From: Hansschlegelia quercus
Lineage (GTDB): Bacteria > Pseudomonadota > Alphaproteobacteria > Rhizobiales > Methylopilaceae
Assembly: GCF_004310425.1 (NCBI RefSeq)
Contig: NZ_SIUB01000004.1
Location: forward strand, 186,001 to 250,000
Length of the DNA stretch: 64,000 bases
Reading direction: 5' to 3'
The notes below the pieces were generated by a model, which was given only the letters and a program-made list of their open reading frames with translations, had not been told where the DNA came from and searched no databases. Numbering within the stretch: the first letter of the stretch is position 1; every line of letters begins with the position of its first letter. Position numbers and translations under genes: made by a program. Shown here in pieces: positions 25,886 to 40,414 of this stretch.

Positions 25886-27106
25886 ATGACCGAGCGCTCT
25901 CCTCGCCCGCAAACACGTCTCGCGCTCTTCATCCGTTCGCTGAAGGCGGGCGGGGCGGAGCGGTCGACGGTCAATCTGGCGGGGGCGCTGGCCAAGCGCG
26001 GTTACGCGGTCGATCTCGTTCTCGGCCGCGCCGAAGGGCCGTTCCTCGCCGACGTGCCGTCCGCGGTCAGGGTGGTCGACCTCGCCGCGCGCTCGGCGCT
26101 GCCCGTCCTCGCTGTCGCGCCCTGGCGGCCCGGCGACTTCATCGCCCTCGTGCCGGTTCTGCTGGACAACCCGCCCCGGACGCTGGGCGCAATCCCTGCC
26201 CTCGCCCGCTATCTGCGGCGGGAGCGGCCTGCGGCCATGCTCTCGGCGCTCGATCACGGCAACGTCGCGGCAGTGATCGCCCGCGATCTCGCGGGCGTCG
26301 GCACGCGCCTGACGCTCAGCCAGCGCAATCATCTGACATCCGACCTCGCGGCGGCGCACGAGCCCCGCGTCACCAAGCTCGCGCCGCTCATCCGGCGGTT
26401 CTATCCCCGCGCTGACGCGATCGTCGCCGTGTCCGACGGCGTCGCCGACGACCTTGCGGCTGTCGCCGAAATCCCGCGCGAAAGGATCCGGGCGATCTAC
26501 AACGCCGTCGCGACGCCGGAGCTTTACGCGCAGGCGGCGGCTCCGCTCGACCACCCATGGTTCGTCGAAGGCGCCAAGCCGGTCATCCTGTCCGTCGGCA
26601 AACTGAAGCCGCAAAAGGATTATCCGACGCTTATCCGGGCCTTCGCCCTGCTGCGGCGAGAGCGCGATGCGCGGCTCGTGATCCTCGGCGACGGCCCGGA
26701 CCGGGAGGCGCTCGCCGCGCTTGCCGCCGAACTCGGCGTCGCCGAGGATCTCGACATGCCGGGCTTCGCGCCGAACCCGTTCGCTTACATGGCGCGCGCC
26801 GATCTCTTCGTGCTGTCGTCGGCTTTCGAGGGCCTGCCAGGCGTGCTGATCCAGGCGCTCGCCTGCGGTTGCCCGGTCGTCAGCACGGACTGCCCGAGCG
26901 GTCCGCGCGAGATTCTCGAAGGCGGCGTTTACGGCCCGCTGACGCCCGTCGGAGACGCCGCTGCGCTGAAGGAAGCCATGGCGGCGACGCTCGCTTCGCC
27001 GCCTGACCGGGAGGCGCTGCGCCAGCGAGGGGCGTGGTTCTCGCCGGAGCGGGCGGCGGACGCCTATCTCGATGTCATGCTGGGGGCGGAGACCGCCCGG
27101 ACTTGA
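25886..27106 (+). CDS. GT4-type glycosyltransferase (divergent paralogue)
   Basis: Glycosyltransferase of 406 aa. The acceptor domain has LALFIRSLKAGGAERSTVNLAGALAKRGY, and the donor domain ILSVGKLKPQKDYPTLIRAFALL, VILGDGPDREAL and FEGLPGVLIQALACGCPVVSTDCPSGPREIL, followed by EGGVYGPLTPVGD. The last block is nearly the same as in the divergent neighbour (DGGVYGRLTPVGD), so the two genes are paralogues. The ATG at 25886 is chosen; a GTG at 25850 with CGGAG before it would add 12 residues. The ABC exporter gene follows after about 60 nt, then the acyl-AMP ligase gene, all in one direction. Confidence 0.88.
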   Translation: MTERSPRPQTRLALFIRSLKAGGAERSTVNLAGALAKRGYAVDLVLGRAEGPFLADVPSAVRVVDLAARSALPVLAVAPWRPGDFIALVPVLLDNPPRTLGAIPALARYLRRERPAAMLSALDHGNVAAVIARDLAGVGTRLTLSQRNHLTSDLAAAHEPRVTKLAPLIRRFYPRADAIVAVSDGVADDLAAVAEIPRERIRAIYNAVATPELYAQAAAPLDHPWFVEGAKPVILSVGKLKPQKDYPTLIRAFALLRRERDARLVILGDGPDREALAALAAELGVAEDLDMPGFAPNPFAYMARADLFVLSSAFEGLPGVLIQALACGCPVVSTDCPSGPREILEGGVYGPLTPVGDAAALKEAMAATLASPPDREALRQRGAWFSPERAADAYLDVMLGAETART

Positions 27107-27167
27107 GGCGACGGACGTTTGGCGATACCCCGTGCCGCGCACTATCCCGCGGTCGGGCGAAGGCCGC

Positions 27168-28991
27168 GTGGCCCGAGCCCTCTTTCAGAGCCCAGTGTCC
27201 TTGAACGACGCACCGACGATCCGTCAGCGCAAGAAGGGCCGTTTTGAGAACCTGAAGCGGCTCGCCTCGGTCATCCCGCTGCGGCGCTCCGCGCTGACGC
27301 TGTTCTGTCTTGTGCTGGCCGGGATCGCAGAGGGCGTCGGCGTCGCGAGCCTGCTGCCGCTCGTCACGCTGATGGGACAGACCGGCTCGCAGCCCAAGGG
27401 GATCGCGGGCGCGATCTTCAACTTCCTGCACGGCTACGGCATCGAGCCGACGGTCGGCCTGTTCCTCTCCGTGCTGGTCTTCGGCATGCTGCTGAAGGCG
27501 ACGCTTAGTTTGGTCGCGCTCCATCAAGTCGGTCGCGCCGTCGCGGACGTCACGGTGCGCATGCGGCTCCAGCTCATCGACGCGCTGCTTGCGGCGCGCT
27601 GGTCCTACTATGTCCGCCAGCCCGTAGGCCGCTTCGCGAACGCGCTTGGCGCGGAGGCGAACGACGCCGGGGCGGCCTATCATCAAAGCGCCCAACTCAC
27701 GGCCGAGTTGATCCAGATCGCGACCTACTTCGCGATCGTCATGATCTTTTCCTGGAAGCTCGCTCTGGTGGCGATCGGCGTCGGGCTGATCATGGTCCTG
27801 ACGCTCAATCGTTTCGTGATCATCGCGAAGCGGACCGCTCGAAAGCAGAACCGCCATATCAAGCGGATGATCGCCGGCCTCACCGACCTCCTGGTCGGAC
27901 TGAAGCCGATGAAGGCGATGGGCCGCCAGGGCCGCTTCCAGACGCTGTTCGAGCGCGACGCCCGCATCATCCGCAAGGCTCAGCGTAAGCAGTCCTTTGC
28001 GCGCCACGCCAACAAGGCGCTGCAGGAGCCGATCCTCGCGGCCTGTCTGGCCATCGGCCTCTATGGCGCGCTGGTGATCTGGCAGGCGCAGCCTGGCGAA
28101 GTGCTCATCATGGCCGTGCTGCTGGTGCGCATGGTCACGACCATCGGCAAGGCCCAGGAGGGTCTGCAAGCGGTCCGCATCGCCGAAGTCGGCTTCGTCT
28201 CGATCATCGAGGCGATCGACTACGCCCGCTCCGCGCGCGAGCCCGCTCATGTCGGCGCGGACCCGACCTTCGAGCGCGGTGTGACGTTCCGCGACGTCAC
28301 CTTCGCCTATGACGACACGACGATCATCGAGCGCGCGTCGTTCGAAGTGCCGAGAGGCCTCGTCACCACGATCACCGGCGGCTCGGGCGCGGGCAAGACG
28401 ACGACGGTCGACCTGCTGCTCGGCCTTCATGAGCCGCAATCCGGCGAAATCCTGATCGACGGCAAGCCGCTCTCAGAGATCGACCTCGTCAGCTGGCGGC
28501 GGATGACCGGCTACGTGCCGCAGGAGCTGATCCTGTTCCACGACACGCTGCTGTCGAACGTCACGCTCGGCGAGCCGGAATTCACCCAGGAGGACGTCGA
28601 GCGCGCCATCGAGGCGGCCGGCGCGTCGGATTTCGTCTCCCGCCTACCAGAGGGCGTACAGACGATCGTCGGCGAACGCGGCGCGCGCCTGTCGGGCGGC
28701 CAGCGCCAGCGCATAGCGATCGCCCGCGCGCTGATCCATCGGCCGAAGATCCTGATCCTCGACGAGGCGACAACCGCCCTCGACCCCGAGACGGAAGCGA
28801 ACATCGTCCGCAACGTGCTGGAGCTCGCCCGCTCGACAGGTCTGACGGTGCTCGCGATCTCGCACCAGCCGGCCTGGGCGCGCGCCTCCGACCATGTCGT
28901 TAGACTGGAGGGCGGGCGAGTCGTAACCGTCGAACGGCGCGTCGATTTCACGGCCGAGACGCCCGAGCCCGCGTCGAGCGCGTCCGCCTGA
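27168..28991 (+). CDS. ABC exporter, PglK-like lipid flippase type
   Basis: Fused ABC half-transporter of about 607 aa. The start is uncertain: GTG at 27168 has GAAGG upstream, and GTG at 27195 is possible. Membrane part: LKRLASVIPLRRSALTLFCLVLAGIAEGVGVASLLPL, a layout typical of PglK-type flippases of lipid-linked sugars. ATPase part: Walker A GGSGAGKTT, Q-loop GYVPQELIL, signature LSGGQRQRIAIARAL, Walker B ILILDEATTALD and His in ISHQPAW. It sits between a GT4 gene and, 34 nt downstream, an acyl-AMP ligase gene, so it may flip a glycosylated lipid made by this locus. The substrate is inference. Confidence 0.85.
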   Translation: MARALFQSPVSLNDAPTIRQRKKGRFENLKRLASVIPLRRSALTLFCLVLAGIAEGVGVASLLPLVTLMGQTGSQPKGIAGAIFNFLHGYGIEPTVGLFLSVLVFGMLLKATLSLVALHQVGRAVADVTVRMRLQLIDALLAARWSYYVRQPVGRFANALGAEANDAGAAYHQSAQLTAELIQIATYFAIVMIFSWKLALVAIGVGLIMVLTLNRFVIIAKRTARKQNRHIKRMIAGLTDLLVGLKPMKAMGRQGRFQTLFERDARIIRKAQRKQSFARHANKALQEPILAACLAIGLYGALVIWQAQPGEVLIMAVLLVRMVTTIGKAQEGLQAVRIAEVGFVSIIEAIDYARSAREPAHVGADPTFERGVTFRDVTFAYDDTTIIERASFEVPRGLVTTITGGSGAGKTTTVDLLLGLHEPQSGEILIDGKPLSEIDLVSWRRMTGYVPQELILFHDTLLSNVTLGEPEFTQEDVERAIEAAGASDFVSRLPEGVQTIVGERGARLSGGQRQRIAIARALIHRPKILILDEATTALDPETEANIVRNVLELARSTGLTVLAISHQPAWARASDHVVRLEGGRVVTVERRVDFTAETPEPASSASA

Positions 28992-29025: not shown

Positions 29026-30741
29026 ATGATCGAGAACGGCGCGTTCGTCATGACCCCCGAGATCGCGGCGGAGCGCGGGCTGACGATCCTCGACGCCCTT
29101 GAGATCGCCGGCCAGGGCGAGGAAGGCTTCAACTTCCATACCGGCCGGGGCGTCCTCTCCGAGGCCCTGCCCTATGCGCGACTGAAGGACGAGGCGCGCG
29201 CGCTGGCGGCGAAGCTGCTCGGCGCGGGCGTGAAGCCGGGCGACCGGGTGGCGCTGATCGCCGACACCGAGGGCGATTTCGTCCGGCTTTTCTTCGCCTG
29301 CGGCTATGCCCGCATCGTGCCGGCCCCGATGCCGCTGCCGATGGCGTTCGGCGGGCGCGACGCCTATCTCGCTCATATCAGAAAGATGATCGAATCCGCC
29401 GACGCAGCGGCGGCCTTCGCCCCCGTCGCAATGAGGGACTGGCTGCTCGAGGCCGCAGACGGCCTCACCCTCGTGATGACAGGGACGATCGCAGACCTCG
29501 AAGCGGCTGCGCCGGTCGAAGGGCCGCTGACGCGGCCGGAGCTCGACGATCTCGCTTATATCCAGTTCTCGTCAGGCAGCACGCGGTTCCCGAAGGGAGT
29601 CTCGGTCACCCACCGCGCGCTGATGGCGAACGCGACGGCGATCAGCCGTCACGGCCTGGTGGTGCGCCCCGGCGACCGCTGCGTCTCCTGGCTGCCGTTC
29701 TACCACGACATGGGCCTAGTCGGCTTCATGCTGGCCCCGATCGTCGCGAACCTGACGGTCGACTACCTCGCCACCCGCGACTTCGCACGACGCCCGCTGC
29801 TGTGGCTCGAGATGATCGGGCGGGCGAAGGCGACGATCTCCTATTCGCCGAGCTTTGGCTTCGAGCTCGCCGCCCAGCGCGCGGCGACGCTGGATCTTGG
29901 CGACCTCGACATCTCGACCTGGCGCTGCGCCGGCATCGGCGGCGATATGATCCGTCCCCACGTGCTGCGCCGCTTCGCCGACCGTTTCCGAGCGCACGGC
30001 TTTGACCAGCGCGCCTATGTCGCGAGCTACGGCATGGCGGAGGCGACGCTCGCGCTGACCTTCGCGCCGCTCGATCACGGCCTGCGCGCCGACATGCTGG
30101 ACCTCGACGCGCTCGAGAACGAGGGCGTCGCCTCGCCCTCGACCTCCGAAGAGCGCGCCCGCGAATTCGTCCTGTGTGGGCCGGTTCTCCCCGGCCATGC
30201 GATCGAGGTTCGTTCGCCCGAAGGCGAGACGCTGCCGGAACGCCGCGTGGGACGCATCTTCGCGCGGGGGCCGAGCCTGATGCGCGACTATTTCCGCGAG
30301 CCGGAGGCGACGGCCGAGACGCTCTCGCCCGACGGCTGGCTCGACACCGGCGACCTCGGTTATGTCGCCGACAAGCAGATCGTGATCACGGGCCGAGCGA
30401 AGGACCTCATCCTCGTCAACGGGCGCAACGTCTGGCCGCAGGATCTCGAATGGGCGGTGGAGAGCGGCGTCGAGGGCCTGCGGAGCGGCGACGTTGCGGT
30501 GTTCTCGGTCGACCATGCGGAGGGCGAAGAGGTGGTCGCGCTCGTCCAGGCCCGCAGTGGGGCGCCGGAGGTTCGCGAAAAACTCACCACTGACGTCGCC
30601 TCGCTGCTCCGCCAGCGATTCGGCACTCCGGTCGTCGTGCGCCTTGTCGGCGCGCACGCGCTGCCGCTCACCTCGTCCGGCAAGCTCAGCCGCGCGCGCT
30701 CGCGCGAACTCTATTTGTCGTTGAAGGCCGAAACCGCCTGA
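29026..30741 (+). CDS. Fatty acyl-AMP ligase / acyl-ACP synthetase
   Basis: Adenylating enzyme of 571 aa (FAAL group of the ANL superfamily), which activates a fatty acid with ATP and loads it on an acyl carrier protein. The P-loop is YIQFSSGSTRFPKGVSVTH, followed by SWLPFYHDMGLVG (FAAL-type), ASYGMAEATLA, the TGD aspartate in DGWLDTGDLGYV, and the C-terminal lysine region TSSGKLSRARSRELYL. HDMGLVG and the long insert after GMAEA are features that separate FAALs from acyl-CoA ligases. An alternative ATG lies at 29050. An ACP and a serine palmitoyltransferase gene follow, matching the acyl-ACP synthetase role described for Caulobacter ceramide synthesis. Confidence 0.88.
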   Translation: MIENGAFVMTPEIAAERGLTILDALEIAGQGEEGFNFHTGRGVLSEALPYARLKDEARALAAKLLGAGVKPGDRVALIADTEGDFVRLFFACGYARIVPAPMPLPMAFGGRDAYLAHIRKMIESADAAAAFAPVAMRDWLLEAADGLTLVMTGTIADLEAAAPVEGPLTRPELDDLAYIQFSSGSTRFPKGVSVTHRALMANATAISRHGLVVRPGDRCVSWLPFYHDMGLVGFMLAPIVANLTVDYLATRDFARRPLLWLEMIGRAKATISYSPSFGFELAAQRAATLDLGDLDISTWRCAGIGGDMIRPHVLRRFADRFRAHGFDQRAYVASYGMAEATLALTFAPLDHGLRADMLDLDALENEGVASPSTSEERAREFVLCGPVLPGHAIEVRSPEGETLPERRVGRIFARGPSLMRDYFREPEATAETLSPDGWLDTGDLGYVADKQIVITGRAKDLILVNGRNVWPQDLEWAVESGVEGLRSGDVAVFSVDHAEGEEVVALVQARSGAPEVREKLTTDVASLLRQRFGTPVVVRLVGAHALPLTSSGKLSRARSRELYLSLKAETA

Positions 30742-30748
30742 ACACGAT

Positions 30749-30767
30749 TTGAAACACTTCGTTTCAA
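30749..30767 (+). repeat. Inverted repeat after acyl-AMP ligase
   Basis: TTGAAAC-ACTTC-GTTTCAA, 7-bp perfect arms, 7 nt after the stop codon. It lacks a T-run, so it is at most a weak terminator or mRNA end stabiliser. As duplex DNA it could also be an operator. Confidence 0.45.
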
Positions 30768-30853
30768 GCGCGTCGTTCCCAGTCGGACGACAGCCAAGAA
30801 GCCCTTCGCGCAAGCGCCTCCCACTCCGCCCGCTCGACCGGATCAGCAGCGGC

Positions 30854-30876
30854 GTTGACCGAACGGTTCGGTCAAC
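30854..30876. promoter_or_regulatory. 23-bp perfect palindrome, TetR-operator-like
   Basis: GTTGACCGAAC-G-GTTCGGTCAAC: 11-bp perfect arms around one base. Size and symmetry fit the operator of a TetR-family or similar dimeric repressor. It lies in the promoter region upstream of the ACP and serine palmitoyltransferase genes and is the longest perfect palindrome I noticed in the window. No TetR gene is nearby. Confidence 0.6.
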
Positions 30877-31190
30877 GGTAAGGAATTCGTCAGGCTTATG
30901 AATGATGAAGGGATGCGAGCCGCCACGAAGTCTTCGGACTGGGGACCATGGGGCGACTGCGGGATGGCGGTGATGGGCGTTGAACGCCGAGCACGACATT
31001 TCCGCAACAGTCCGAATGCATCCAAGTTCGCTGGCTTCTCCAGCCTTCGCGACTCGTGCTCAATAACCGTTCGGCGCTGTAACATGCTGCATTGAAGAGT
31101 GTATCCTTCGATGTTGCGGAAGTAACGACCGATTTCTAGTTTACCGTCGTCCACTCGTCTTCGCGGCGGCGACCAAGCCAAGGCGCGAAG

Positions 31191-31439
31191 ATGACGGACG
31201 AAACGACGCTGATCCCGGAAATCTCTGACGTTCTGGAATCGGTGACGAACAAGCGGGTGGAGCTCTCGCCGGAGATGAACATCGTCAATGATCTTGGTCT
31301 CGATTCCATCGCGGTCATGAACTTCTGCATGGCGCTGGAAGACCGGTTCGACATCTCCATTCCGCTCAATGACATGGCCAGCGTTGTGACGGTCGCCGAT
31401 CTGGCGAACACGATCGAAACGCTGCGGAGTAACGCGTGA
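31191..31439 (+). CDS. Acyl carrier protein for sphingolipid synthesis
   Basis: Acidic four-helix carrier of 82 aa. The phosphopantetheine attachment serine is Ser39 in DLGLDSIAVMNF, where the DSI variant replaces the usual DSL. It starts ATG after AAGGCGCGAAG and overlaps the serine palmitoyltransferase start (TGATG). It is separate from the housekeeping AcpP type (no fab genes near). In Caulobacter a dedicated ACP next to spt, loaded by an acyl-ACP synthetase, is needed for ceramide formation. The gene order here is the same idea, so the role is inferred with good support. Confidence 0.9.
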   Translation: MTDETTLIPEISDVLESVTNKRVELSPEMNIVNDLGLDSIAVMNFCMALEDRFDISIPLNDMASVVTVADLANTIETLRSNA

Positions 31440-32758
31440 TGGCAATCCTCGATAAGTTCTCGCAGCTGGCGGCCCGCTACGACGCGCTGAAGCAGAGCGG
31501 CGGCGACCCGTTCTCGATCAAGTTCGACGACATCATTTCGTCGGTCGAGGGCGTGGTGAACGGCAAGCGCACGCTGCTGTTCGGCACCAACAACTATCTC
31601 GGCCTGACCTTCGACCCGGTTGCGATGGAGCGCTCGATCGAGGCGATCCGCACGCACGGCACCGGCACCACCGGCTCGCGCATCGCGAACGGCAGTTATC
31701 GCGAGCATGAGCGGCTCGAGCGCGAGCTCGCCGACTTCTACGGCCGCAAGCACTGCATGGTGTTCTCGACCGGCTATCAGGCGAACCTCGCCATGATCTC
31801 GACGCTGGTCGGCAAGGACGACCACCTGATCATCGACGCAGACAGCCACGCCTCGATCTACGACGCGTCGCGGCTCGGCCATGCGCCGGTCGTGCGCTTC
31901 CGCCACAACAATCCCGACGACCTCGCCAAGCGCCTCGCTCGGCTGAAGGACGTTCCCGGCGAGAAGCTGATCGTCGCAGAAGGCATCTACTCCATGCTCG
32001 GCGACACCGCGCCGCTGAAGGAGTTCGTCGACGTGAAGCGCGAGTTCGGCGCTTACCTCATGGTCGACGAGGCGCACTCGATGGGCGTGCTCGGGCAGCG
32101 CGGCCGCGGCCTCGCGGAGCGTGAGGGCGTCGAGGACGACGTCGACTTCGTGGTCGGCACCTTCTCGAAGAGCCTCGCCAGCGTCGGCGGCTTCTGCGTC
32201 TCGAGCATCGAAGGCTTCGAAATCCTGCGCCTCGCCGCCCGCCCCTACATGTTCACGGCCTCGCTGCCGCCGGCGGTGATTTCGTCGACGATCTCCGCGC
32301 TCGAGACGCTCCGCAAGGAGCCGCAGCGCCGCCAGAAGCTGCGCGCCAACTCGCGCCGCTTCTACGACGGCCTCAAGAACGCCGGCTTCACCGTCGGGCC
32401 GGAGGCGAACCCGATCGTCGCCGTGATCCTGAACGACGCCGCGGTGGCGACCGCGTTCTGGCGCCGTCTGGTCGACGAGGGCATGTACCTCAACCTGGCG
32501 CTGCCGCCCGCAACGCCGAACTCCTCGGCCTTCCTGCGGTCGAGCGTGAGCGCGGCGCACACGAATGAGCACATCGACTTCGCGATCGAGCTGATGACCC
32601 GCATCGGCCGCGAGTTCGGCATCTTGCCCGACGCCGAGGCCGTCGATTACTCGAACGTGACGCAGTTCCCGCGCGTCAGCGCAGAACGCCCTGGCGCCAG
32701 AGCCGCCAAAGCGCCGGCCCGGCGGCCAGCAGCGGATGTCGGCGCTGGAATGGCGTGA
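31439..32758 (+). CDS. spt: Serine palmitoyltransferase
   Basis: PLP enzyme of the alpha-oxoamine synthase family, about 439 aa, condensing L-serine with an acyl thioester to 3-ketosphinganine. The schiff-base lysine is Lys244 in GTFSKSLASVGGF. Asp210 and His213 lie in VDEAHSMG, and His137 in DADSHASIYD. Segments diagnostic for SPT rather than KBL, AONS or ALAS are VRFRHNNPDDL, EGIYSMLGD.APLKEFV, RPYMFTASLPP and YLNLALPPATP. ATG at 31439 overlaps the ACP stop by one base (a GTG three bases earlier is possible). The last 26 residues are Ala/Arg-rich and overlap the convergent gene by 83 nt, so the tail may be a recent extension. Confidence 0.93.
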   Translation: MAILDKFSQLAARYDALKQSGGDPFSIKFDDIISSVEGVVNGKRTLLFGTNNYLGLTFDPVAMERSIEAIRTHGTGTTGSRIANGSYREHERLERELADFYGRKHCMVFSTGYQANLAMISTLVGKDDHLIIDADSHASIYDASRLGHAPVVRFRHNNPDDLAKRLARLKDVPGEKLIVAEGIYSMLGDTAPLKEFVDVKREFGAYLMVDEAHSMGVLGQRGRGLAEREGVEDDVDFVVGTFSKSLASVGGFCVSSIEGFEILRLAARPYMFTASLPPAVISSTISALETLRKEPQRRQKLRANSRRFYDGLKNAGFTVGPEANPIVAVILNDAAVATAFWRRLVDEGMYLNLALPPATPNSSAFLRSSVSAAHTNEHIDFAIELMTRIGREFGILPDAEAVDYSNVTQFPRVSAERPGARAAKAPARRPAADVGAGMA

Positions 32759-33614
32759 TCTCGATCTTGTGGCCGGAGTGCCGCTCGATCTTCCAGGCGA
32801 TGTAATCCACGCCGCCTGAAAACGTGAATGCGGCCTTCGCGAGCCGCGCAAGATTCAAGGGCTTGGCGACGCGCTTCCGGCGCGCCCAAGCCCTTTCTGC
32901 ATCCGCTCTCGCCTGATCGTTGAGATCGGGTGCGATCTCGCCCTCACTTTCCACAAAGCCGATCCCCTCCGCCGCAAGCGCAAGCGGCAGAATCGCGGCA
33001 TAGCGCTCCGGCGCGGCGTCGACGATCGAGCTCGATCGGTTAGCGCCTTCGACACGAAGCTCGGAGGCGTAGGTCCGCGCGAACAGCGCGCGCCAGAATG
33101 CGTCCGCCGGAGCGGAGCGCGGGCCGAGATGCGCCGCCCACCATGCCGCCCCGCCGACGGCCAGAGCGACCGCCTCCGCCACAGCCGCTCGCGCGGCGTC
33201 GTCACGCGCGAAAACCAACGCGCAGGGCTGCGCGAAACGCGCCCAAATCGTGGTGTCGTAGCTCTTCGCCTGTGCGTGGTCGCGGAACTGGGCGAGCGAC
33301 ATGATCGCGATCTTGGCGCGCAGCGTCATGCCGGCGGCGGTGGCCTCGGCATATTCCACGTTCGGCGGCAAGGTTTTCGCGCCCCGTGCGGCCGCCTTGC
33401 CCCAGTCCCACGCCGCGAAGTCGTCGAGCAGGACGTAGAAATCGAGCAGCCCGTCGGTCGCGCCAGTGCGCAGCGCCGAGCCGTAGAACAGCACGCCGAC
33501 CACGCCGCTTCCGCCCCGCCCCGCGATCTCCGTCGCGAACGCGGCGACGGCCGGCGCAACGGGACACAAGAGTTCGTCGGCGACGAAGGCGGAGAGGCTG
33601 GCGGGCGCGCTCAT
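32676..33614 (-). CDS. Tam41-like nucleotidyltransferase (putative CDP-lipid synthase)
   Basis: Protein of 312 aa. The N-terminal half carries a pol-beta-type nucleotidyltransferase motif: VLFYGSALRTG (Gly45-Ser46) and LLDFYVLLDD with Asp58. The pattern afterwards resembles mitochondrial Tam41/MMP37, which makes CDP-diacylglycerol from phosphatidate: a LPPNVEYAEA stretch, LRAKIAIMSLAQF (like the GVIS..AL..DL segment), WARFAQPCALVF (like AGRLHKPV) and RTYASELRVEG...SIVDAAPERYAAIL. Context suggests the substrate could be ceramide 1-phosphate. It is the third gene of a minus-strand operon, joined to the kinase gene by an ATGA overlap. The similarity is judged by eye. Confidence 0.65.
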   Translation of the reverse strand: MSAPASLSAFVADELLCPVAPAVAAFATEIAGRGGSGVVGVLFYGSALRTGATDGLLDFYVLLDDFAAWDWGKAAARGAKTLPPNVEYAEATAAGMTLRAKIAIMSLAQFRDHAQAKSYDTTIWARFAQPCALVFARDDAARAAVAEAVALAVGGAAWWAAHLGPRSAPADAFWRALFARTYASELRVEGANRSSSIVDAAPERYAAILPLALAAEGIGFVESEGEIAPDLNDQARADAERAWARRKRVAKPLNLARLAKAAFTFSGGVDYIAWKIERHSGHKIEITPFQRRHPLLAAGPALWRLWRQGVLR

Positions 33615-34543
33615 AAGCTCACGAACCTGATCGCCGACCCGGCCTTCAGCTCGACGCGACCGTCCGGCCCCGGCGAGAAGGCGTCGCCATCCAATATGAA
33701 GGGATCAGACAGCGTCAGAGACACCTGGTCGGCGCGCAGGCTGGCGTATCCCTCTTTATCGGCGAAGGACGGCTTGCGGCCCAGGCCGAGCGCCAGGAAC
33801 CCGCGCGCAAGGCGCCGCGGCGGAGCGGCGATCTCTGTCAGCCGGATCGCGCCCTCTCCCTCGCCCCAGAAGGGGTAGAGCCTGAGGATCAGCCGGTGAA
33901 GCGAGGTCGCGAGCAGCACGAAGCTGTGGCCGCTGCGGGCGGGCGCGCCATCGACTGCGATCGAAAGCGGGACGCCGCTCCGCCAGATCTGGCGGTCCTT
34001 GCCGAAGGCGGCCGCGCCGCCCATCAACACGCCGAGCGCAACCCCGATCCCTTGCGCGAAGCCGCGCGAATGCACCCTCTCGTTCACGAGCCGCGTTGTG
34101 CGTTCGTAGGCGCCGAGACCGAACACGAAGCCGATCCGTGTCCAGCCATCCGTCGTCACCATGATCGGCCGCCGGATCTCCTCCGCTCGCCATGCTCCAC
34201 TCGTCGCCGCTTGCGCGAGCCGCTCCAGTCCCTCCGCGCTCCGCGCGACGCCGCCGACGTCGAGCGCGGCGACGTTGGTCTTGCCGCTCGGAATGATGGC
34301 GATCGAGGGCGGCTTGTCGCCATAGGCCTGCGGGAGCGCGCTCAGAACGTCCCGGAGCGTGCCGTCGCCGCCATCGACCGCCACCACGGACACGCCTGCT
34401 TGAGCGAAGCGCGTCAGCGCGGCGGGGTAGCCGTCCAGGGTCTCGGGCGCTTCGACGAGAACTCCGGGCGGCGCGTGGTTCAGAACCGCCTCGCGCGTGT
34501 TCCGCCAGCTCCGTCCGTTCGCAATGATCCCGACGACGCTCAC
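33611..34543 (-). CDS. DAG-kinase-family lipid kinase, ceramide-kinase-like
   Basis: Protein of 310 aa of the diacylglycerol/sphingosine/ceramide kinase catalytic family. ATP site: VVAVDGGDGTLRDVLSAL (GGDGT at residues 58-62) and the second conserved block IAIIPSGKTNVAALDVG. The C-terminal beta-sandwich runs to FILDGDAFSPGPDGRVELKAGSAIRFV. GTG at 34541-34543 is the start, overlapping the upstream stop as GTGA. It is placed between the CDP-alcohol phosphotransferase and Tam41-like genes. In Caulobacter a member of this family (CpgB) phosphorylates ceramide, and the sphingolipid context makes ceramide the best guess here. YegS-like lipid kinase is the alternative. Confidence 0.85.
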   Translation of the reverse strand: MSVVGIIANGRSWRNTREAVLNHAPPGVLVEAPETLDGYPAALTRFAQAGVSVVAVDGGDGTLRDVLSALPQAYGDKPPSIAIIPSGKTNVAALDVGGVARSAEGLERLAQAATSGAWRAEEIRRPIMVTTDGWTRIGFVFGLGAYERTTRLVNERVHSRGFAQGIGVALGVLMGGAAAFGKDRQIWRSGVPLSIAVDGAPARSGHSFVLLATSLHRLILRLYPFWGEGEGAIRLTEIAAPPRRLARGFLALGLGRKPSFADKEGYASLRADQVSLTLSDPFILDGDAFSPGPDGRVELKAGSAIRFVSL

Positions 34544-35676
34544 GCCTCGAGCCAGGAGGTGAGCCGCCCCTTTCGACGCGCCCAAAAGCCCTGGACGATC
34601 TGCGCAGCGTGGACGACGAGCGACAGCACGATCCACCACGCAGTCGCGATCATGCCGAGGTCGGGCCGGCCGAACAGCGTGAAGACGGTGAGGATCACGA
34701 GGTTCGGGTTCCGCCGCGCCGTGATCAGCCGGAAGAAGCTGTCGAACGGCCGCCAGACGTGCATGTGCATGCCGAAGGCGCGCACGAAGATGCCCTCGAG
34801 GATGCGCTGGACGACATAACCGCCGAAGATGATCCAGACGACGAGGTCCGGCCGCTCGATCGGCAGGCCGTAGGCCGGCAATCCGATGACCCACGCCCAC
34901 CACCAGAACGGCGGGTGGATCAGGTCGACGCCGTGGTCGAGCACGTCGCCGAACTTGGAATAGGTCATCGTCACGCGGGCGAGCTTGCCGTCGACCGTGT
35001 CGAGGAAGGTCATGATCCAGGCTGGGATAAGGCCGGTCAGGTACCAGCCTTGCCAGAACAGCCCGAGCGCCAGGAACATCAGCGCGATGCCGAGATAAGT
35101 CACCTGGTTCGGCGTGATGGCGCGCTCGGCGCACCATTTGGTGACGATCTGCGCCGGGACCGGCCAGACATATTTGGTGATCCCGTCCGTCACGCCTTTG
35201 TAGGAGGCGGCGAAGCTGCGGTCCTCGACCTCCTTTACGGTGGTCGCGTCGAGCGGAACGGCGTAGGCGATCTCGCGCTTGCGGAGCTGGAAATTGTAGG
35301 AGCCGCCAAGACCTTCGGCGTCGAGCCCATCGACGCCCACCGGAAGCGGCCCGCGGCCTCCGAGCGCCGCCATCGCGGTCGCGACGTCAGACGCCGAGAC
35401 GTTGGCGGCGACAGGAACGCCGGCGACGATGAGCGCGCAGTCCGGCCGCTCTGCGAGCGCTGCGATCAGCCGCTGCTCGTAGGCATGGTCGACGCGCAGC
35501 AGGATCACCCGTCCGCCGGTAGCGGCGGCGGCGATATCTTGGCCGACGTTGGTGATCTTGACCTTCAGGAGCTGCCGCCGCAGCCTCTCGGCCGAGCTCA
35601 TGCCCCAGATGCGCACCTCGGAGACGCCGAGCAGGACTGCAGTCGTCGCCTGCGCGCTTTTGCCCGTTTCCGTCAT
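34540..35676 (-). CDS. CDP-alcohol phosphatidyltransferase with N-terminal NTase-like domain
   Basis: Membrane enzyme of 378 aa. The C-terminal half has the complete CDP-alcohol phosphotransferase motif: Asp226, Asp229, Gly230, Ala233, Arg234, Gly243, Asp247 and Asp251 (DTVDGKLAR...GDVLDHGVD), with about six helices. Residues 1-150 are soluble and look like a reduced nucleotidyltransferase domain (MSSAERLRRQL, VILLRVDHAYEQRLIAAL, CALIVAGVPVAANV), similar in layout to bifunctional inositol-phosphate cytidylyltransferase/DIPP synthases. The conserved ASYKGVTDGITKYVWP joins the two parts. It is first gene of the minus-strand lipid-headgroup operon and probably forms the phosphodiester headgroup of a sphingolipid. 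The exact alcohol is unknown. Confidence 0.87.
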   Translation of the reverse strand: MTETGKSAQATTAVLLGVSEVRIWGMSSAERLRRQLLKVKITNVGQDIAAAATGGRVILLRVDHAYEQRLIAALAERPDCALIVAGVPVAANVSASDVATAMAALGGRGPLPVGVDGLDAEGLGGSYNFQLRKREIAYAVPLDATTVKEVEDRSFAASYKGVTDGITKYVWPVPAQIVTKWCAERAITPNQVTYLGIALMFLALGLFWQGWYLTGLIPAWIMTFLDTVDGKLARVTMTYSKFGDVLDHGVDLIHPPFWWWAWVIGLPAYGLPIERPDLVVWIIFGGYVVQRILEGIFVRAFGMHMHVWRPFDSFFRLITARRNPNLVILTVFTLFGRPDLGMIATAWWIVLSLVVHAAQIVQGFWARRKGRLTSWLEA

Positions 35677-35770
35677 TCTTGTCGCATTTCCATTGCATGC
35701 CGAGATTTCGCGTGTCGTTTAGCGGCAAATAGCGCCGCTCGCCACCCGCTCTCCCGAGGAGCCGCCGCAA

Positions 35771-36208
35771 ATGGCCAACAGGACGATGGAGAAGTTCGGC
35801 TTTCCGCGCAGCCTCGTGGCGGAGGTCGGCGCGTGGAGCGTGCTGGTCCGGCCCAAGCAGCCGGCGCTCGGCTCCCTCGTGCTGGTCTGCCGGGAGGACG
35901 CCACGGCATTCTCCGCGCTGTCGCCGCAGGCCTTCAGCGATCTCGGCCGCGCGATTTCCGGGATCGAGGCGATGCTGAAGCCGTTCGCGGATTACGAACG
36001 GATCAACTATCTCATGCTGATGATGGTCGACCCGGACGTCCACTTCCACGTGATCCCTCGCTATGACGGGGCGCGAAGCTTCGGCGACCTCGAGATTTCG
36101 GACGCCGGCTGGCCGGGACCGCCGGACCTTTCGTCGGGGCCGGACCTCGATGAGGGCCAGATCGACGCGCTCGCGGGCGCGCTGAAGTCGCGCTGGGCTG
36201 GCGTCTGA
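35771..36208 (+). CDS. HIT family protein
   Basis: Protein of 145 aa of the histidine-triad nucleotide hydrolase/transferase superfamily. The triad reads PDVHFHVIPRYDG: the usual first His is Asp, while the catalytic middle His and the third His are kept. The N-terminal beta hairpin (SVLVRPKQPALGSLVLVCR) carries the phosphate-site region. It begins with ATG after GAGGAG, heads the plus-strand operon and overlaps the LptF-like start (TGATG). HIT enzymes cleave nucleotide-phosphate bonds (Ap4A, AMP-X), and a CDP-lipid or nucleotide intermediate of the locus would be a reasonable substrate, but this is inference. Confidence 0.85.
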   Translation: MANRTMEKFGFPRSLVAEVGAWSVLVRPKQPALGSLVLVCREDATAFSALSPQAFSDLGRAISGIEAMLKPFADYERINYLMLMMVDPDVHFHVIPRYDGARSFGDLEISDAGWPGPPDLSSGPDLDEGQIDALAGALKSRWAGV

Positions 36209-37422
36209 TGGGCCATCTCCTCGGCCTCAGGCTGCTCGAACGCTATGTCTTGAGGCTCGCGCTGAAGCCGATGTTCGGCGCGCTCGCCGTGGTGCTCGCC
36301 GCGCTGCTGCTGGAACGCGTGCTGAGGCTCGTCGATCTGCTCGCCACGGCCGGCGCGCCGGTCTTCCTCGTGTTCGCGCTGTCGGCCAATCTCGTGCCGC
36401 ATTATCTCGGCTTCGCGCTACCTGCGGGCTTCGCGCTCGGCGTGTTCAGCGCGATTTCGCGGCTCTCGCTGGGCGCCGAGCTGGAGGCCATGCTGGCGAG
36501 CGGCGTGTCGATCCCGTCGGTCACCCGGCCGCTGATCGCGCTCGGCTGTGTGCTCGCGGTGGTCAGCATCGCGGTCACGGGCTTCATCGCGCCGCTCTCC
36601 CGCTACGCCTATCGAGACATCCTGAATTCGGGCGTCACCTATGCCTGGCGCGCGCATGCGCCGGCCGCGACCTTCATCAGCGCCAAGGACGGGCTGACGA
36701 TCACCGCCGACGAGGTCGACAAGACCGGCCGCCAGCTCACAGGCGTCTTCATCCAGAACCGCGAGAACGGCGTCGAGGTGGTGACGACCTCGGTCAGCGG
36801 AACGCTGGAGCTGACCCCCGACAGAGCCCAGATCCAGCTTAGACTTCACAACGGCGTCGTGGTGCGGGATTACGGGGCGGCGCGGCCGAGCACGTTGCGT
36901 TTCCAGGAGCTCGTGCTCGACAAGAAGTTCGCCCTCGAGGCGCCGCCTTTCCGGCCGCGCGGCGGCAATGAGCGCGAGCTAACGCTGACCGAGCTCTGGA
37001 GCGAGATGAGCGCGCAGCCGCCGTCCTCTCCGCTGAATGAGCTGCAGGCGGAGTTCCATTCCCGCATCGTTCGGTCGCTGTCGCTGCCGTTCCTGCCGCT
37101 CCTCATCGTGCCGCTCAGCATGACGCTCCGCCGCAACACGCGCTTCGGCAACGCCGCTGCGGCCGCCGTGCTGATGATCCTGTTCCACAACGCGCTGCAG
37201 ATCGGCGAGACCTTCGCCCACAAGGGCCGCGCGCCCGCGGCCGTCGCGCTCTGGGTTCCGTTCATTCTCTTTGCCGCCTTCTCGACCTGGCTGTTCTTCA
37301 CCAGCACTGACCGGCCCGGCGACACCGCCGTCTCGCGCGCGATCGACAGGATGAGCGAAGCTGTCCAGGCGCTCGGGCGCCGCACGATCGGCCGCTTCCG
37401 CACAAGGACTGCGCAGGGCTAG
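36208..37422 (+). CDS. LptF/LptG (YjgP/YjgQ) family permease, first of pair
   Basis: Inner-membrane protein of 404 aa. Three helices at each end flank a periplasmic beta-jellyroll (about residues 130-260), the layout of LptF and LptG, which form the membrane part of the LPS extraction ABC transporter with LptB. Family marks: LLGLRLLERYVLRLALKPMFGALAVVLAALLLERVLRLVDL at the start and EFHSRIVRSLSLPFLPLLIVPLSM after the jellyroll. The usual neighbours in Hyphomicrobiales (lptD, surA, pdxA, ksgA) are absent. The pair lies between a HIT gene and a ceramide-synthase-like gene, so it may move a sphingolipid rather than LPS. Alternatively it is the only lptFG pair of the genome. Confidence 0.88.
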   Translation: MGHLLGLRLLERYVLRLALKPMFGALAVVLAALLLERVLRLVDLLATAGAPVFLVFALSANLVPHYLGFALPAGFALGVFSAISRLSLGAELEAMLASGVSIPSVTRPLIALGCVLAVVSIAVTGFIAPLSRYAYRDILNSGVTYAWRAHAPAATFISAKDGLTITADEVDKTGRQLTGVFIQNRENGVEVVTTSVSGTLELTPDRAQIQLRLHNGVVVRDYGAARPSTLRFQELVLDKKFALEAPPFRPRGGNERELTLTELWSEMSAQPPSSPLNELQAEFHSRIVRSLSLPFLPLLIVPLSMTLRRNTRFGNAAAAAVLMILFHNALQIGETFAHKGRAPAAVALWVPFILFAAFSTWLFFTSTDRPGDTAVSRAIDRMSEAVQALGRRTIGRFRTRTAQG

Positions 37423-38550
37423 ATGCGTTTCACCCGGTATCTCAGCGGCATGCTGATCCGCCGCGCGCTTTCCGCCGCGCTGATCCTCGCCTTCATCATG
37501 CAGGTTCTCGACCTCGTCGATAACGCCGGCGACATCCTCGACCAGGGCGAAGGCCTGGCCGGGCTGCTGCGCTACGCCGGACTCAAGATGCCAATGCTGC
37601 TGACCCGCGCGCTGCCGCTCGGCGCCTTGATCGGCGCCCTGCTGACCCTGCTGACGCTCGCCCGCAACAGCGAGATCGCGGCGATGCGCTCGGCCGGGCG
37701 CAGCACCTGGCTGATGTTCCTGATGATGCTGCCGGGCGCGATCGTGCTGACCCTGCTGCAGTCGACGCTGATCGACGTCGTCGTGCCGCGCTCGGAAGCG
37801 CGCCTCGCGATCCTCGCGACCCATGCCGCTGACGAGGAGGCGAGCCAGGACGGCAAAGACGTCAAGCCGACCTGGATCCGCGTGGGCGACGCGGTCGTGT
37901 CCTTCGACCGGGTCAACAATCGTGGCCGCAAGCTGAAATCGCTGAAGATCTACGATCGCGACGCGAGCAAGATCGTCACCTCCCGCACCGTCGCCAGCGA
38001 AGCGCGCTGGGAGAACGGCCGCTGGATCCTGAAGGATGCGGAACGGATCGACTGGACGCGGGCGAACTTCAACGTCCGCACGCCGGCCGACGGCCCGTGG
38101 GCGACGACCATGACGCCCGACGACGTGCTCTCGGCGCTGACGCCCGAAAGCCGCGTCTCGCTGACCGCGGCCCGCGCCGTGCTCGCGGGCGAGGCGACGC
38201 CGAACGCGCCGATCGCCTTCTATCAGACGCTGGTCGAGCGGGTTTACGCAGGCCCCCTCGGCACGATTGTCATGGTGCTGCTTTCGATGCCGGCCGCGCT
38301 GGTGAACTGGCGCGACCAGCGTTCGGCGCGCCATGCGGTCGTCGCGGTCGCCGGTGGGCTGATCTTCATGTTGTGCGACGGGCTGCTTTCGACGCTCGCG
38401 CTGACGGACGTGGTGCGCCCCGTCATCGGCGCCTGGTCCGGGCTCGTGATTTTCGCCGTCTATGGACTCTGGCGGCTGCGCCGGATCGATGGCGGTTGGC
38501 CGGCGCCGAAAGCGCCGGCGGGCCGGGACGCCCGGCTGGCGGAGGCCTGA
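37423..38550 (+). CDS. LptF/LptG (YjgP/YjgQ) family permease, second of pair
   Basis: Inner-membrane protein of 375 aa with the same 3+3 helix and jellyroll plan as its partner, to which it is directly adjacent with no spacing. The opening MRFTRYLSGMLIRRALSAALILAFIMQVLDLVDNAGDIL and the RALPLGALIGALLTLLTLARNSEIAAMRSAGRS segment follow the LptG pattern. The C-terminal helices include GGLIFMLCDGLLSTLALTDVVRPVIGAW. It should form a heterodimer with the upstream product and use an LptB-type ATPase encoded elsewhere. The acyltransferase gene starts 2 nt after its stop. Confidence 0.88.
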   Translation: MRFTRYLSGMLIRRALSAALILAFIMQVLDLVDNAGDILDQGEGLAGLLRYAGLKMPMLLTRALPLGALIGALLTLLTLARNSEIAAMRSAGRSTWLMFLMMLPGAIVLTLLQSTLIDVVVPRSEARLAILATHAADEEASQDGKDVKPTWIRVGDAVVSFDRVNNRGRKLKSLKIYDRDASKIVTSRTVASEARWENGRWILKDAERIDWTRANFNVRTPADGPWATTMTPDDVLSALTPESRVSLTAARAVLAGEATPNAPIAFYQTLVERVYAGPLGTIVMVLLSMPAALVNWRDQRSARHAVVAVAGGLIFMLCDGLLSTLALTDVVRPVIGAWSGLVIFAVYGLWRLRRIDGGWPAPKAPAGRDARLAEA

Positions 38551-38552
38551 AC

Positions 38553-39680
38553 ATGAGCGCGGTCGAAATCAAGCGCGTCGTCTCGAAAGCAGATTTCGAC
38601 GCCTTCATCGCGCTGCCGAAGCGGCTGAGCGCGGGCGACCCGAACTACATCGCGCCGCTCGACTTCGAGCGGAAGGAATCGCTGTCGCGCACCAAGAACC
38701 CGCTGTTCAATTACATGGAGGCCGAGTTCTTCCTCGCGATGAAGGGCGGGCGCCCCGTCGGCCGTATCTCCGCCCAGGTCGACCGGCGCACCGGCGAGGT
38801 CGGCCATTTCGGCCTCGTCTCCGGCGAGAACGATCCGGAGATCTTCGCGGCGCTGTTCGCCGAGGTCGAGCGCTTCCACCGCGCCCGCGGCAAGGCGGAG
38901 ATCCAAGGTCCGTTCAATCTCTCGATCAACGAGGAGATCGGCCTGCTAGTCGAGGGCCACGACACGCCCTCCATGCTGCTGATGCCGCACGACCCGCCTT
39001 ACCTCGCCCCCCACATCGAGGCGGCTGGCTATTCCAAGGCGATGGACCTCTACGCCTATCTGCTCGACACCGCGGTCCCTTTCCCCAAGGCGATCGAGCG
39101 CGTCTTTGCGCGGCCGGCGCCCGCGGGGCTGACGGTGCGCCATATCGACTGGAAGCAGTACGACCGCGAACTCGCGGCGATCATCGACATCTTCAACGAC
39201 GCCTGGGCCGACAATTGGGGCTTCGTGCCCTTCGCCAAGGATGAGCTCGATCATCTCGCGAAATCGATGAAGATGCTGCTCGACGAGGACCTCGTCTGGA
39301 TCGCGGAGGTGAACGGCAAGCCTGCCGCGTTCGGCGTCGGCCTGCCGAACCTCAACGAGATCATCCGCGATTTCCACGGCAAGCTGCTGCCGTTCAATTG
39401 GGCCAAGCTGATCTGGCGGCTGAAGGCGCGAAAATATTCGTCGGCGCGTTTCGCGCTGATGGGCGTCCGCCGCGAATACCACGGAACTTATCTCGGCAAC
39501 GTCATGCCGCTCTACCTCTTCAAGGAGTTCCGCGAGGTCGGCCGATCCCGGAAAATCCGCCACGTCGAGATGTCGTGGATCCTCGAGACGAACATGCCGA
39601 TGCGGCACATGGCCGAGGCCTTGAGCCACGGCGAGCCCTACAAGACCTATCGCGTCTACTCGAAGCGGCTCGTACCATGA
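38553..39680 (+). CDS. Bacterial ceramide synthase-like acyltransferase (GNAT fold)
   Basis: Protein of 375 aa without membrane segments, containing two GNAT-like halves. The N-terminal half has FIALPKRLSAGDPNYIAPLDFERKE, RPVGRISAQVDR and IQGPFNLSINEEIGLLVEGHDTPSMLLMPHDPPYL. The C-terminal half has IFNDAWADNWGFVPFAKDEL and HVEMSWILETNMPMRHMAEAL. These blocks match what I recall of the Caulobacter N-acyltransferase (CC_1154, bCerS), which acylates 3-ketosphinganine. GGAGG lies 7 nt before the ATG. It sits between LptG-like and nucleotidyltransferase genes in the same operon. Many databases list the family only as GNAT acetyltransferase, so a role in N-acylation is inferred. Confidence 0.8.
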   Translation: MSAVEIKRVVSKADFDAFIALPKRLSAGDPNYIAPLDFERKESLSRTKNPLFNYMEAEFFLAMKGGRPVGRISAQVDRRTGEVGHFGLVSGENDPEIFAALFAEVERFHRARGKAEIQGPFNLSINEEIGLLVEGHDTPSMLLMPHDPPYLAPHIEAAGYSKAMDLYAYLLDTAVPFPKAIERVFARPAPAGLTVRHIDWKQYDRELAAIIDIFNDAWADNWGFVPFAKDELDHLAKSMKMLLDEDLVWIAEVNGKPAAFGVGLPNLNEIIRDFHGKLLPFNWAKLIWRLKARKYSSARFALMGVRREYHGTYLGNVMPLYLFKEFREVGRSRKIRHVEMSWILETNMPMRHMAEALSHGEPYKTYRVYSKRLVP

Positions 39681-40414
39681 CCGTCACCGCGCTCGTGCTC
39701 GCGGGCGTCCGGCCGGGCAAGGACGCGCTCGCCGAATTCGCCGGCGTCTCCCACAAGGCGCTGATCCCCGTAGGCGGCGTCGCCATGCTCGACCGGGTGG
39801 TCAACGCACTCCGCGCGAGCGGCCGGGTCGGCCGGATCGCGGTCTCGATCGACCGGCCCGAGCTGGTGACGACCGAAGGCGTCGAGATCATCCGCTCGAA
39901 GGCGTCCTTGAGCGAAAGCGTGGCGGCCGCGGTCGCTCAGCTCGGGACGCCGCTGTTCGTCACGACCGCGGACCATGCGCTGCTCGAGCCGGAATGGGTC
40001 CGCTATTTCCTCGACAATACGCCCGACAGAACCGTCTCCGCCGCGCTTGCGCGCGACAGTGTGGTGATGGCGTCGACGCCTGGCACTAAGCGGACCTTCC
40101 TGAAGCTCGCGGACGGGGCGTTCTCGGGCTGCAACATGTTCTATTTCCGCGACGGCGAGGCGGTGAAGGCCGTCGAGATGTGGCGCTCGGTCGAGCAGCT
40201 GCGCAAAAAGCCGCTAAAACTCCTCCAAAAGCTCGGTCCCCGCGCGGTGCTGGACTATGCCCTCGGCCGGCTGACGCTCGCGCGCGGAGTAGCCGCGATC
40301 GAGCGGTTGTCGGGCGTCAGCGCGGGCGTCGTCGAGATGCCCTTCGGCCGCGCCGCGGTGGACGTCGACAAGCCGGCGGACCTGATTCTCGTGCGGCAGA
40401 TCGTAGAGGGCTGA
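39677..40414 (+). CDS. MobA-like NTP transferase
   Basis: Protein of 245 aa with an N-terminal Rossmann-like NTP-transferase fold: ALVLAGVRPGKDALAE (the LAGG/LAG.R...KD signature), HKALIPVGGVAMLDRVVNAL, and the metal-binding Asp in FVTTADHALLEP. GCNMFYFRDGEAVK and AAVDVDKPADLILVRQI near the end are typical of MobA/IspD-like enzymes that join CTP or GTP to a phosphorylated small molecule. The ATGA overlap with the acyltransferase stop shows translational coupling. In this locus it could activate the polar headgroup (for example as a CDP-alcohol) for the phosphotransferase. Substrate unknown. Confidence 0.82.
   Translation: MTVTALVLAGVRPGKDALAEFAGVSHKALIPVGGVAMLDRVVNALRASGRVGRIAVSIDRPELVTTEGVEIIRSKASLSESVAAAVAQLGTPLFVTTADHALLEPEWVRYFLDNTPDRTVSAALARDSVVMASTPGTKRTFLKLADGAFSGCNMFYFRDGEAVKAVEMWRSVEQLRKKPLKLLQKLGPRAVLDYALGRLTLARGVAAIERLSGVSAGVVEMPFGRAAVDVDKPADLILVRQIVEG

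Follow-up and report, generated by a model that had tools for sequence, protein, structure and literature searches.

Introduction

The closest described relatives of the locus analyzed here are found in Caulobacter, where the region CC_1168-CC_1152 is a phosphosphingolipid locus in which aasR, cerR, acpR, spt, and cerS serve the synthesis of ceramide, six genes serve that of ceramide diphosphoglycerate (CPG2), and lptC2, lptF2, and lptG2 together with CC_1166 have been proposed to act in transport (PMC11324152). The genetics of these genes (PMC11324152), the activity of CpgB as a ceramide kinase (PMC10331486), and that of CpgD as a phosphoglycerate cytidylyltransferase (PMC12275187) have been established in Caulobacter by others. 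Sphingomonads carry a sphingolipid in place of lipopolysaccharide (LPS), and sphingolipid transport to the outer membrane was called unsolved in 2024 (PMC11324152, PMC11087976). Here, a sphingolipid locus with its own LptFG pair was analyzed in a 64,000-nt window from Hansschlegelia quercus of the Methylopilaceae (GCF_004310425.1, NZ_SIUB01000004.1, positions 186,001-250,000; the window is this whole stretch, and its coordinates are used throughout).

The locus probably makes and exports an anionic phosphosphingolipid of the ceramide phosphoglycerate (CPG)/CPG2 type that replaces a lost LPS by way of LptF2G2-LptD, a reading drawn from the genes. Gene content, orthology, gene losses, and the split of the LptFG trees are directly established. 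The predicted biosynthesis pathway is of an already known kind (ceramide phosphoglycerate), and the new part is the genome context, in which LPS genes and the LPS-type LptFG are lost and the LptFG pair of the locus is kept.

Apparent Loss of Lipid A Genes

A total of 45 genomes were compared for LPS genes, consisting of 26 relatives (including the H. quercus genome itself, G000, with a completeness rating of 100%) and 19 genomes with full-length CpgA from a class sample of 289 Alphaproteobacteria. G numbers denote compared genomes and L numbers compared loci, and ordinary LpxC was defined by an E-value below 1e-90. The locus is borne by 34 of the 45 genomes, with G299 counted through its cpgA, cpgB, HIT, lptF2, lptG2, cerS, cofC, and cpgD genes; the other 11 are relatives without a locus-type serine palmitoyltransferase (SPT).

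H. quercus appears, from its gene content, to have lost key genes of ordinary LPS. No LpxK was found in its genome, and a search with PF03739 identified one LptFG pair, the one at the sphingolipid locus. Of the 34 genomes with the locus, 14 have LpxK, ordinary LpxC, and a second LptFG pair and the other 20 have none of the three, a concordance of 34/34 (Fisher p = 7e-10, uncorrected for kinship). Among the relatives, all three are present in G291, G292, G294, G297, G299, and G309 and all three are absent in G000, G289, G290, G293, G295, G296, G298, G300, and G307; the 19 class-sample genomes divide into eight with all three and 11 with none. The LptFG pair of G295 lies in four pieces and is apparently frameshifted, and G027 and G309 each gave five LptF/LptG matches, some of those in G027 partial. 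LptD is present in all 45 genomes searched.

The 11 relatives that lack the locus contain LpxC (11/11), LpxK (10/11, not G308), and two LptF/LptG matches each, except G310 (one, partial), and none has an SPT match above 36% identity or a CpgD-type match better than 9e-21. G308, which contains LpxC and no locus-type SPT, combines the absent LpxK match with weak LptF/LptG matches. Within the class sample, LpxC is missing in 12 out of 20 CpgA-positive genomes versus 34 out of 269 CpgA-negative genomes (Fisher p = 3.3e-6, uncorrected for kinship), where CpgA-positive calls follow a gap in the best E-values (<=2.3e-81 versus >=3.2e-9).

Two Types of LptFG and the Site of Loss

Phylogenetic trees of LptF (47 rows) and LptG (48 rows) each separate LPS-type from locus-type proteins with 100/100 support. 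The lptF2 and lptG2 genes of the window group with those of sphingolipid loci and not with the lptFG-lptD pairs. A total of 16 of the 20 one-pair locus-bearing genomes were placed in the trees (G295 in the LptG tree only, four congeners represented by their named records) and all 16 group with the locus type, among them G195 and G080, in which the pair and cpgA are located on different contigs. In the four one-pair genomes outside the trees (G289, G296, G300, and G263), the pair is located within ~6 kb of spt or cpgA. When the LPS state of 20 genomes was mapped on the locus-LptF tree, which as a gene tree is no more than a proxy for a species tree, five changes and four independent contrasts on supported branches were obtained.

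The site of the loss was located between pepA and lptD. Both lptF and lptG are found there in 11 genomes (five congeners, three further members of the family, G305, G309, and G313). In H. quercus and seven congeners, pepA and lptD are direct neighbors with lptFG missing between them, at a distance of 206 nt in H. quercus and, measured between tblastn bounds, of 446-902 nt in the seven congeners. The corresponding stretch of G307 reads lptD-pdxA-ksgA, with lptF and pepA absent. The window pair shares the PF03739 LptF/LptG family with the canonical Lpt pathway, and LptD is kept, but unlike the canonical lptFG-lptD operon it belongs to a separate clade and lies away from lptD. As LpxC, LpxK, and the LPS-type LptFG are lost, the outer leaflet is probably built from the sphingolipid, with LptF2G2 as the sole extractor of this lipid.

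Several observations weigh against this replacement of LPS. No LpxC was found in the H. quercus genome, but LpxA, LpxB, LpxD, WaaA, LptA, LptB, LptC, and LptE were not searched for, and LpxC and LpxK are thus the only lipid A genes covered. Of the eight genomes of the genus with a single pair, six (G289, G290, G295, G296, G298, and G300) encode a divergent LpxC-like protein (E-values of 1e-53 to 1e-70). The 34 CpgA-negative genomes without LpxC indicate that LpxC loss has other causes as well. No SPT was found in G299, where the contig ends ~1.2 kb past cpgB, at the place where cpgC and spt would follow. With only four to five independent transitions on the locus-LptF tree, a contrast test cannot reach significance; LPS state and second LptFG pair are coded identically in all 20 genomes, and the sign test is no separate test of their link. 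Finally, the best matches and a tree revealed no CerR orthologue genome-wide, which leaves a hole in the pathway since Caulobacter requires CerR to form ceramide.

Some of these observations, together with the retained LptD, would fit a cell in which LPS synthesis persists through a divergent or unrecognized route and the LptFG of the locus handles both lipids. This is unlikely, as LpxC is wholly undetected in H. quercus and G293, which both also lack the divergent LpxC-like protein, LpxK is missing from all 20 one-pair locus-bearing genomes, and none of the 16 such genomes placed in the trees has kept an LPS-type pair. Furthermore, all five congeners with ordinary LpxC (G291, G292, G294, G297, and G299) carry the divergent LpxC-like gene as a second copy.

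A Predicted Ceramide Pathway without CerR

An alignment of 17 CpgA proteins was scanned against named genomes and the best 80 of 562 loci were compared with the window. Six of the 80, the nearest to the window, belong to the Methylopilaceae (two from Hansschlegelia, one from Chenggangzhangella, two from Methylopila, and one from a record named Chelatococcus sambhunathii, G296, that is placed in the genus of H. quercus) and 74 to other groups, some of the latter interrupted by contig ends. The cerR gene is absent from all seven Methylopilaceae loci (the window and the six) versus its presence in 40 out of 40 other loci in which aasR, acpR, and spt are all found. A cerR remnant between aasR and acpR was considered and rejected: 51 CerR queries gave no tblastn match at E <= 1 in the gap of the window, and weak matches occur in the gaps of relatives only (best E-value 0.003, L039).

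The best genome-wide CerR matches in 13 genomes of the genus show 32-37% identity. In a phylogenetic analysis, the matches of nine of these genomes (those of G296, G297, G298, and G300 were left out) group with proteins of three locus-less genomes and are split with 100/100 support from 28 locus-type CerR proteins (26 of the 51 in-locus CerR and those of G307 and G309). In Caulobacter, CerR is a periplasmic reductase whose loss leaves an oxidized ceramide (PMC11087976), and the missing CerR thus indicates that the Methylopilaceae use another reductase or keep a keto-ceramide. In H. quercus, the stretch L137:7981-10161 (equivalent to G000:C12:243980-246160) encodes a CerR-like protein of the NAD-dependent epimerase family 75 nt upstream of cpgD, and in G290 and G293 the distance is ~70-90 nt. 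This protein was rejected as CerR since it groups in the tree with the proteins of the locus-less genomes, and it may act as a substitute reductase.

The CerR hole could also mark a silent or vestigial locus in a cell that builds its outer membrane from other lipids. That is highly improbable given 11 intact open reading frames with the expected motifs where tested and an SPT for which 11 of the 12 congeners searched have a counterpart of 79-93% identity (93% in G293).

Kinship to the Caulobacter Locus and the Headgroup

The window genes match CC_1165-CC_1153 in order, minus cerR and CC_1158, and Caulobacter vibrioides DSM 9893 (L093) has counterparts of all 11 genes at 30-61% identity, with order and relative orientation conserved. 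The window differs from the Caulobacter locus by the lack of cerR, CC_1158, CC_1166, and an lptC2 homologue, by a cpgD gene located elsewhere, and by an ABC exporter gene beside aasR, and its genome differs by the lack of any LpxC, LpxK, or second LptFG pair that could be found. A CpgD homologue with 58% identity is encoded outside the window (G000:C12:245411-246151), all 13 searched genomes of the genus contain homologues with 56-60% identity, and in G294, G297, and G299 cpgD is located ~1.7 kb past the CofC-like gene. Within the stretches examined, cerR, CC_1158, and cpgD are missing from the window and from the six other Methylopilaceae loci.

With CpgD in the genome, the headgroup gene set is complete apart from CC_1158, and since every gene has a Caulobacter counterpart, ceramide monophosphoglycerate and diphosphoglycerate are the expected products. 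The first-pass annotation of this DNA had proposed a phospho-ceramide with a headgroup not yet described, exported by an LptFG pair of its own. Orthology supports predicted phospho-ceramide synthesis at a locus with its own LptFG, a proposal that was if anything understated, as this pair is the only one found in the genome; a new headgroup system was rejected, as the genes have CPG/CPG2 counterparts and CpgD was found elsewhere in the genome.

A headgroup other than that of CPG2 nevertheless has some arguments in its favor, as CC_1158 and CerR are absent from all seven Methylopilaceae loci and the CofC-like enzyme could supply another nucleotide-activated headgroup. We regard this as rather improbable because CpgA, CpgB, CpgC, and the CofC-like gene are present in 7/7 of these loci, CpgD is present throughout the genus genomes searched, and CC_1158 is not strictly needed for CPG2 in Caulobacter (PMC11324152).

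The interval from lptG2 (or lptF2) to cerS was observed to hold an additional, divergent CDP-alcohol phosphotransferase (30-40% identity to cpgA) in loci of beta-, gamma-, and alphaproteobacteria (L054, L058, L061, L062, L066, L086, L090, L091, L100, L107, L111, L115, and L118). Several of these loci have no cpgB nearby or one with only 28-30% identity, and another headgroup is possible there.

Proposed Route of the Lipid

Based on the Caulobacter genetics, AasR would load a fatty acid onto AcpR, Spt would join the AcpR-bound fatty acid with serine, and CerS would N-acylate the product of Spt. CpgB would then phosphorylate the ceramide, CpgC would be needed for ceramide phosphoglycerate, and CpgD (G000:C12) would make CDP-glycerate, which CpgA would use to add a second phosphoglycerate. 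The ABC exporter encoded beside aasR would flip the lipid over the inner membrane. Extraction would fall to LptF2G2, together with a presumed LptB and Lpt bridge, and LptD would insert the lipid into the outer membrane. The sphingolipid would stand in for LPS and would not be an extra beside it. The identity of the lipid, the absence of LPS, the flippase role, and the substrate of LptF2G2 are predictions from the gene set.

The candidate flippase is part of a conserved neighborhood: a homologue of the ABC exporter adjoins aasR in 6/6 Methylopilaceae loci (64-69% identity), and homologues with 39-44% identity are found in the loci of G124 (beside aasR), G307, and Taklimakanibacter (the last two beside cerS). 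Caulobacter has another flippase candidate, CC_1166.

Comparison with LPS-Free Bacteria

Like the sphingomonads that lack LPS, H. quercus is predicted, from genes alone, to use a sphingolipid in its place. The group differs from the sphingomonads in that it belongs to the Methylopilaceae, that the loss took place inside one genus in which LpxC and LpxK persist in the remaining members, and that the fate of both LptFG types was traced. Among the matches listed in the open-licence literature, none reported sphingolipids in Hansschlegelia or Methylopila or a loss of their LPS, and none described for the Methylopilaceae lost lipid A genes and LPS-type LptFG combined with a kept LptD and a kept locus LptFG.

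Within one genus, some genomes combine two LptFG pairs with lipid A genes and others have a single pair without them. This natural experiment ties the LptFG of the locus to the sphingolipid and shows that LptD stays where LpxC and LpxK are gone. It offers a good test case for the route of bacterial sphingolipids to the outer membrane and makes strains available for study that are predicted to be LPS-free and to have a CerR-free ceramide pathway. More tentatively, the alphaproteobacterial lineages that bear the locus may have repeatedly dropped lipid A and its LptFG, leaving the sphingolipid as the sole user of the LptD route, and the surface of the CerR-less Methylopilaceae may consist either of 3-keto-ceramide phosphoglycerates or of ceramides that another enzyme reduces. 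If true, either alternative would be lipid chemistry not described in the literature consulted.

Gene Content and Layout of the Locus

All 11 open reading frames of the first-pass annotation were recovered with the same types and positions (29026-40414), in three transcription units (29026-32758 on the plus strand, 35676-32676 on the minus strand, and 35771-40414 on the plus strand; table 1). The first unit may start earlier, at the ABC transporter gene 34 nt before aasR, a gene that, like the absence of CerR, had gone unmentioned. The overlaps of 1-4 nt reported for the locus apply to acpR/spt, cpgC/cpgB, cpgB/cpgA, and cerS/cofC (-4 nt each) and HIT/lptF2 (-1 nt) but not to the remaining junctions, as lptF2/lptG2 abut (0 nt), lptG2 and cerS are separated by 2 nt, aasR and acpR lie 449 nt apart, and the convergent genes spt and cpgC share 83 nt at their 3' ends.

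Table 1. Features of the sphingolipid locus and its upstream neighbor, in window coordinates
Feature	Position	Strand	Evidence
MsbA/HepA-type ABC exporter, 639 aa, candidate inner-membrane flippase	27072..28991	+	PF00664+PF00005
aasR-type fatty acyl-AMP ligase	29026..30741	+	NF006624 813 v 600 bits; 55% to C. vibrioides
Gap of 449 nt, cerR site of other loci	30742..31190	.	no cerR remnant by tblastn
acpR-type acyl carrier protein	31191..31439	+	PF00550; DSI site at residue 38; 47% to C. vibrioides
spt, serine palmitoyltransferase	31436..32758	+	NF047599 above cut-off; PDB 2x8u E 2e-129; 61% to C. vibrioides
cpgC (CC_1161-like), putative nucleotidyltransferase	32676..33614	-	45% to C. vibrioides; Pfam matches 0
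cpgB, ceramide kinase (DAGK family), GTG start at 34543	33611..34543	-	PF00781; GGDG at 58; 36% to C. vibrioides
cpgA, CDP-alcohol phosphotransferase	34540..35676	-	PF01066; motif D..DG..AR-x8-G...D...D; 50% to C. vibrioides
HIT-family protein (CC_1157-like)	35771..36208	+	PF01230 weak, below cut-off; 56% to C. vibrioides
lptF2, sphingolipid-locus LptF	36208..37422	+	PF03739 E 1.2e-62; locus-type clade 100/100
lptG2, sphingolipid-locus LptG	37423..38550	+	PF03739 E 6e-61; locus-type clade 100/100
cerS, bacterial ceramide synthase (GNAT-like)	38553..39680	+	48% over 371 aa to C. vibrioides CC_1154 counterpart; PF00583 weak, below cut-off
CC_1153-like CofC/MobA-type nucleotidyltransferase	39677..40414	+	PF12804; CofC model weak; 47% to C. 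vibrioides

Pfam and NCBIfam profiles back the acyl-AMP ligase, the acyl carrier protein, SPT, the DAGK-family kinase, the CDP-alcohol phosphotransferase, LptF, LptG, and the MobA/CofC-like nucleotidyltransferase; the HIT, GNAT, and cpgC genes, with weak profile matches or none, were identified through orthology with C. vibrioides. SPT reaches 673.8 bits with the NCBIfam serine palmitoyltransferase model (cut-off 500 bits), and against solved structures the similarity scores favor SPTs (E 2e-129) over the best KBL (2e-68), which, judged from scores and not from an SPT/KBL tree, speaks for the SPT assignment and against a member of the KBL/AONS enzymes. CpgA residues D226, D229, D247, and D251 are invariant in an alignment of 17 proteins. 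The sequences of acpR, spt, cpgB, and cpgA contain the motifs expected for their families. In CpgC, Y44, G45, D58, and Y60 are invariant in an alignment of 35 proteins, and a YGS-x-DF stretch that resembles a nucleotidyltransferase motif is retained. The Tam41-like label of the first-pass annotation has no backing from Pfam, as CpgC itself gave 0 matches and a Tam41 profile was not among the five weak families obtained from 35 homologues, and a sequence search identified no relatives of CpgC among solved structures. The GGDG motif of CpgB is also given in the published account of the kinase (PMC10331486).

The same 11 genes occur together in 6/6 Methylopilaceae loci and each of them occurs in 43 to 74 of the 74 other loci, a recurrence which shows that the clustering is not due to chance. 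The HIT protein CC_1157 was judged probably unrelated (PMC11324152). The HIT gene is kept in 6/6 Methylopilaceae and 64/74 other loci and overlaps lptF2, and its product is therefore likely a member of the system.

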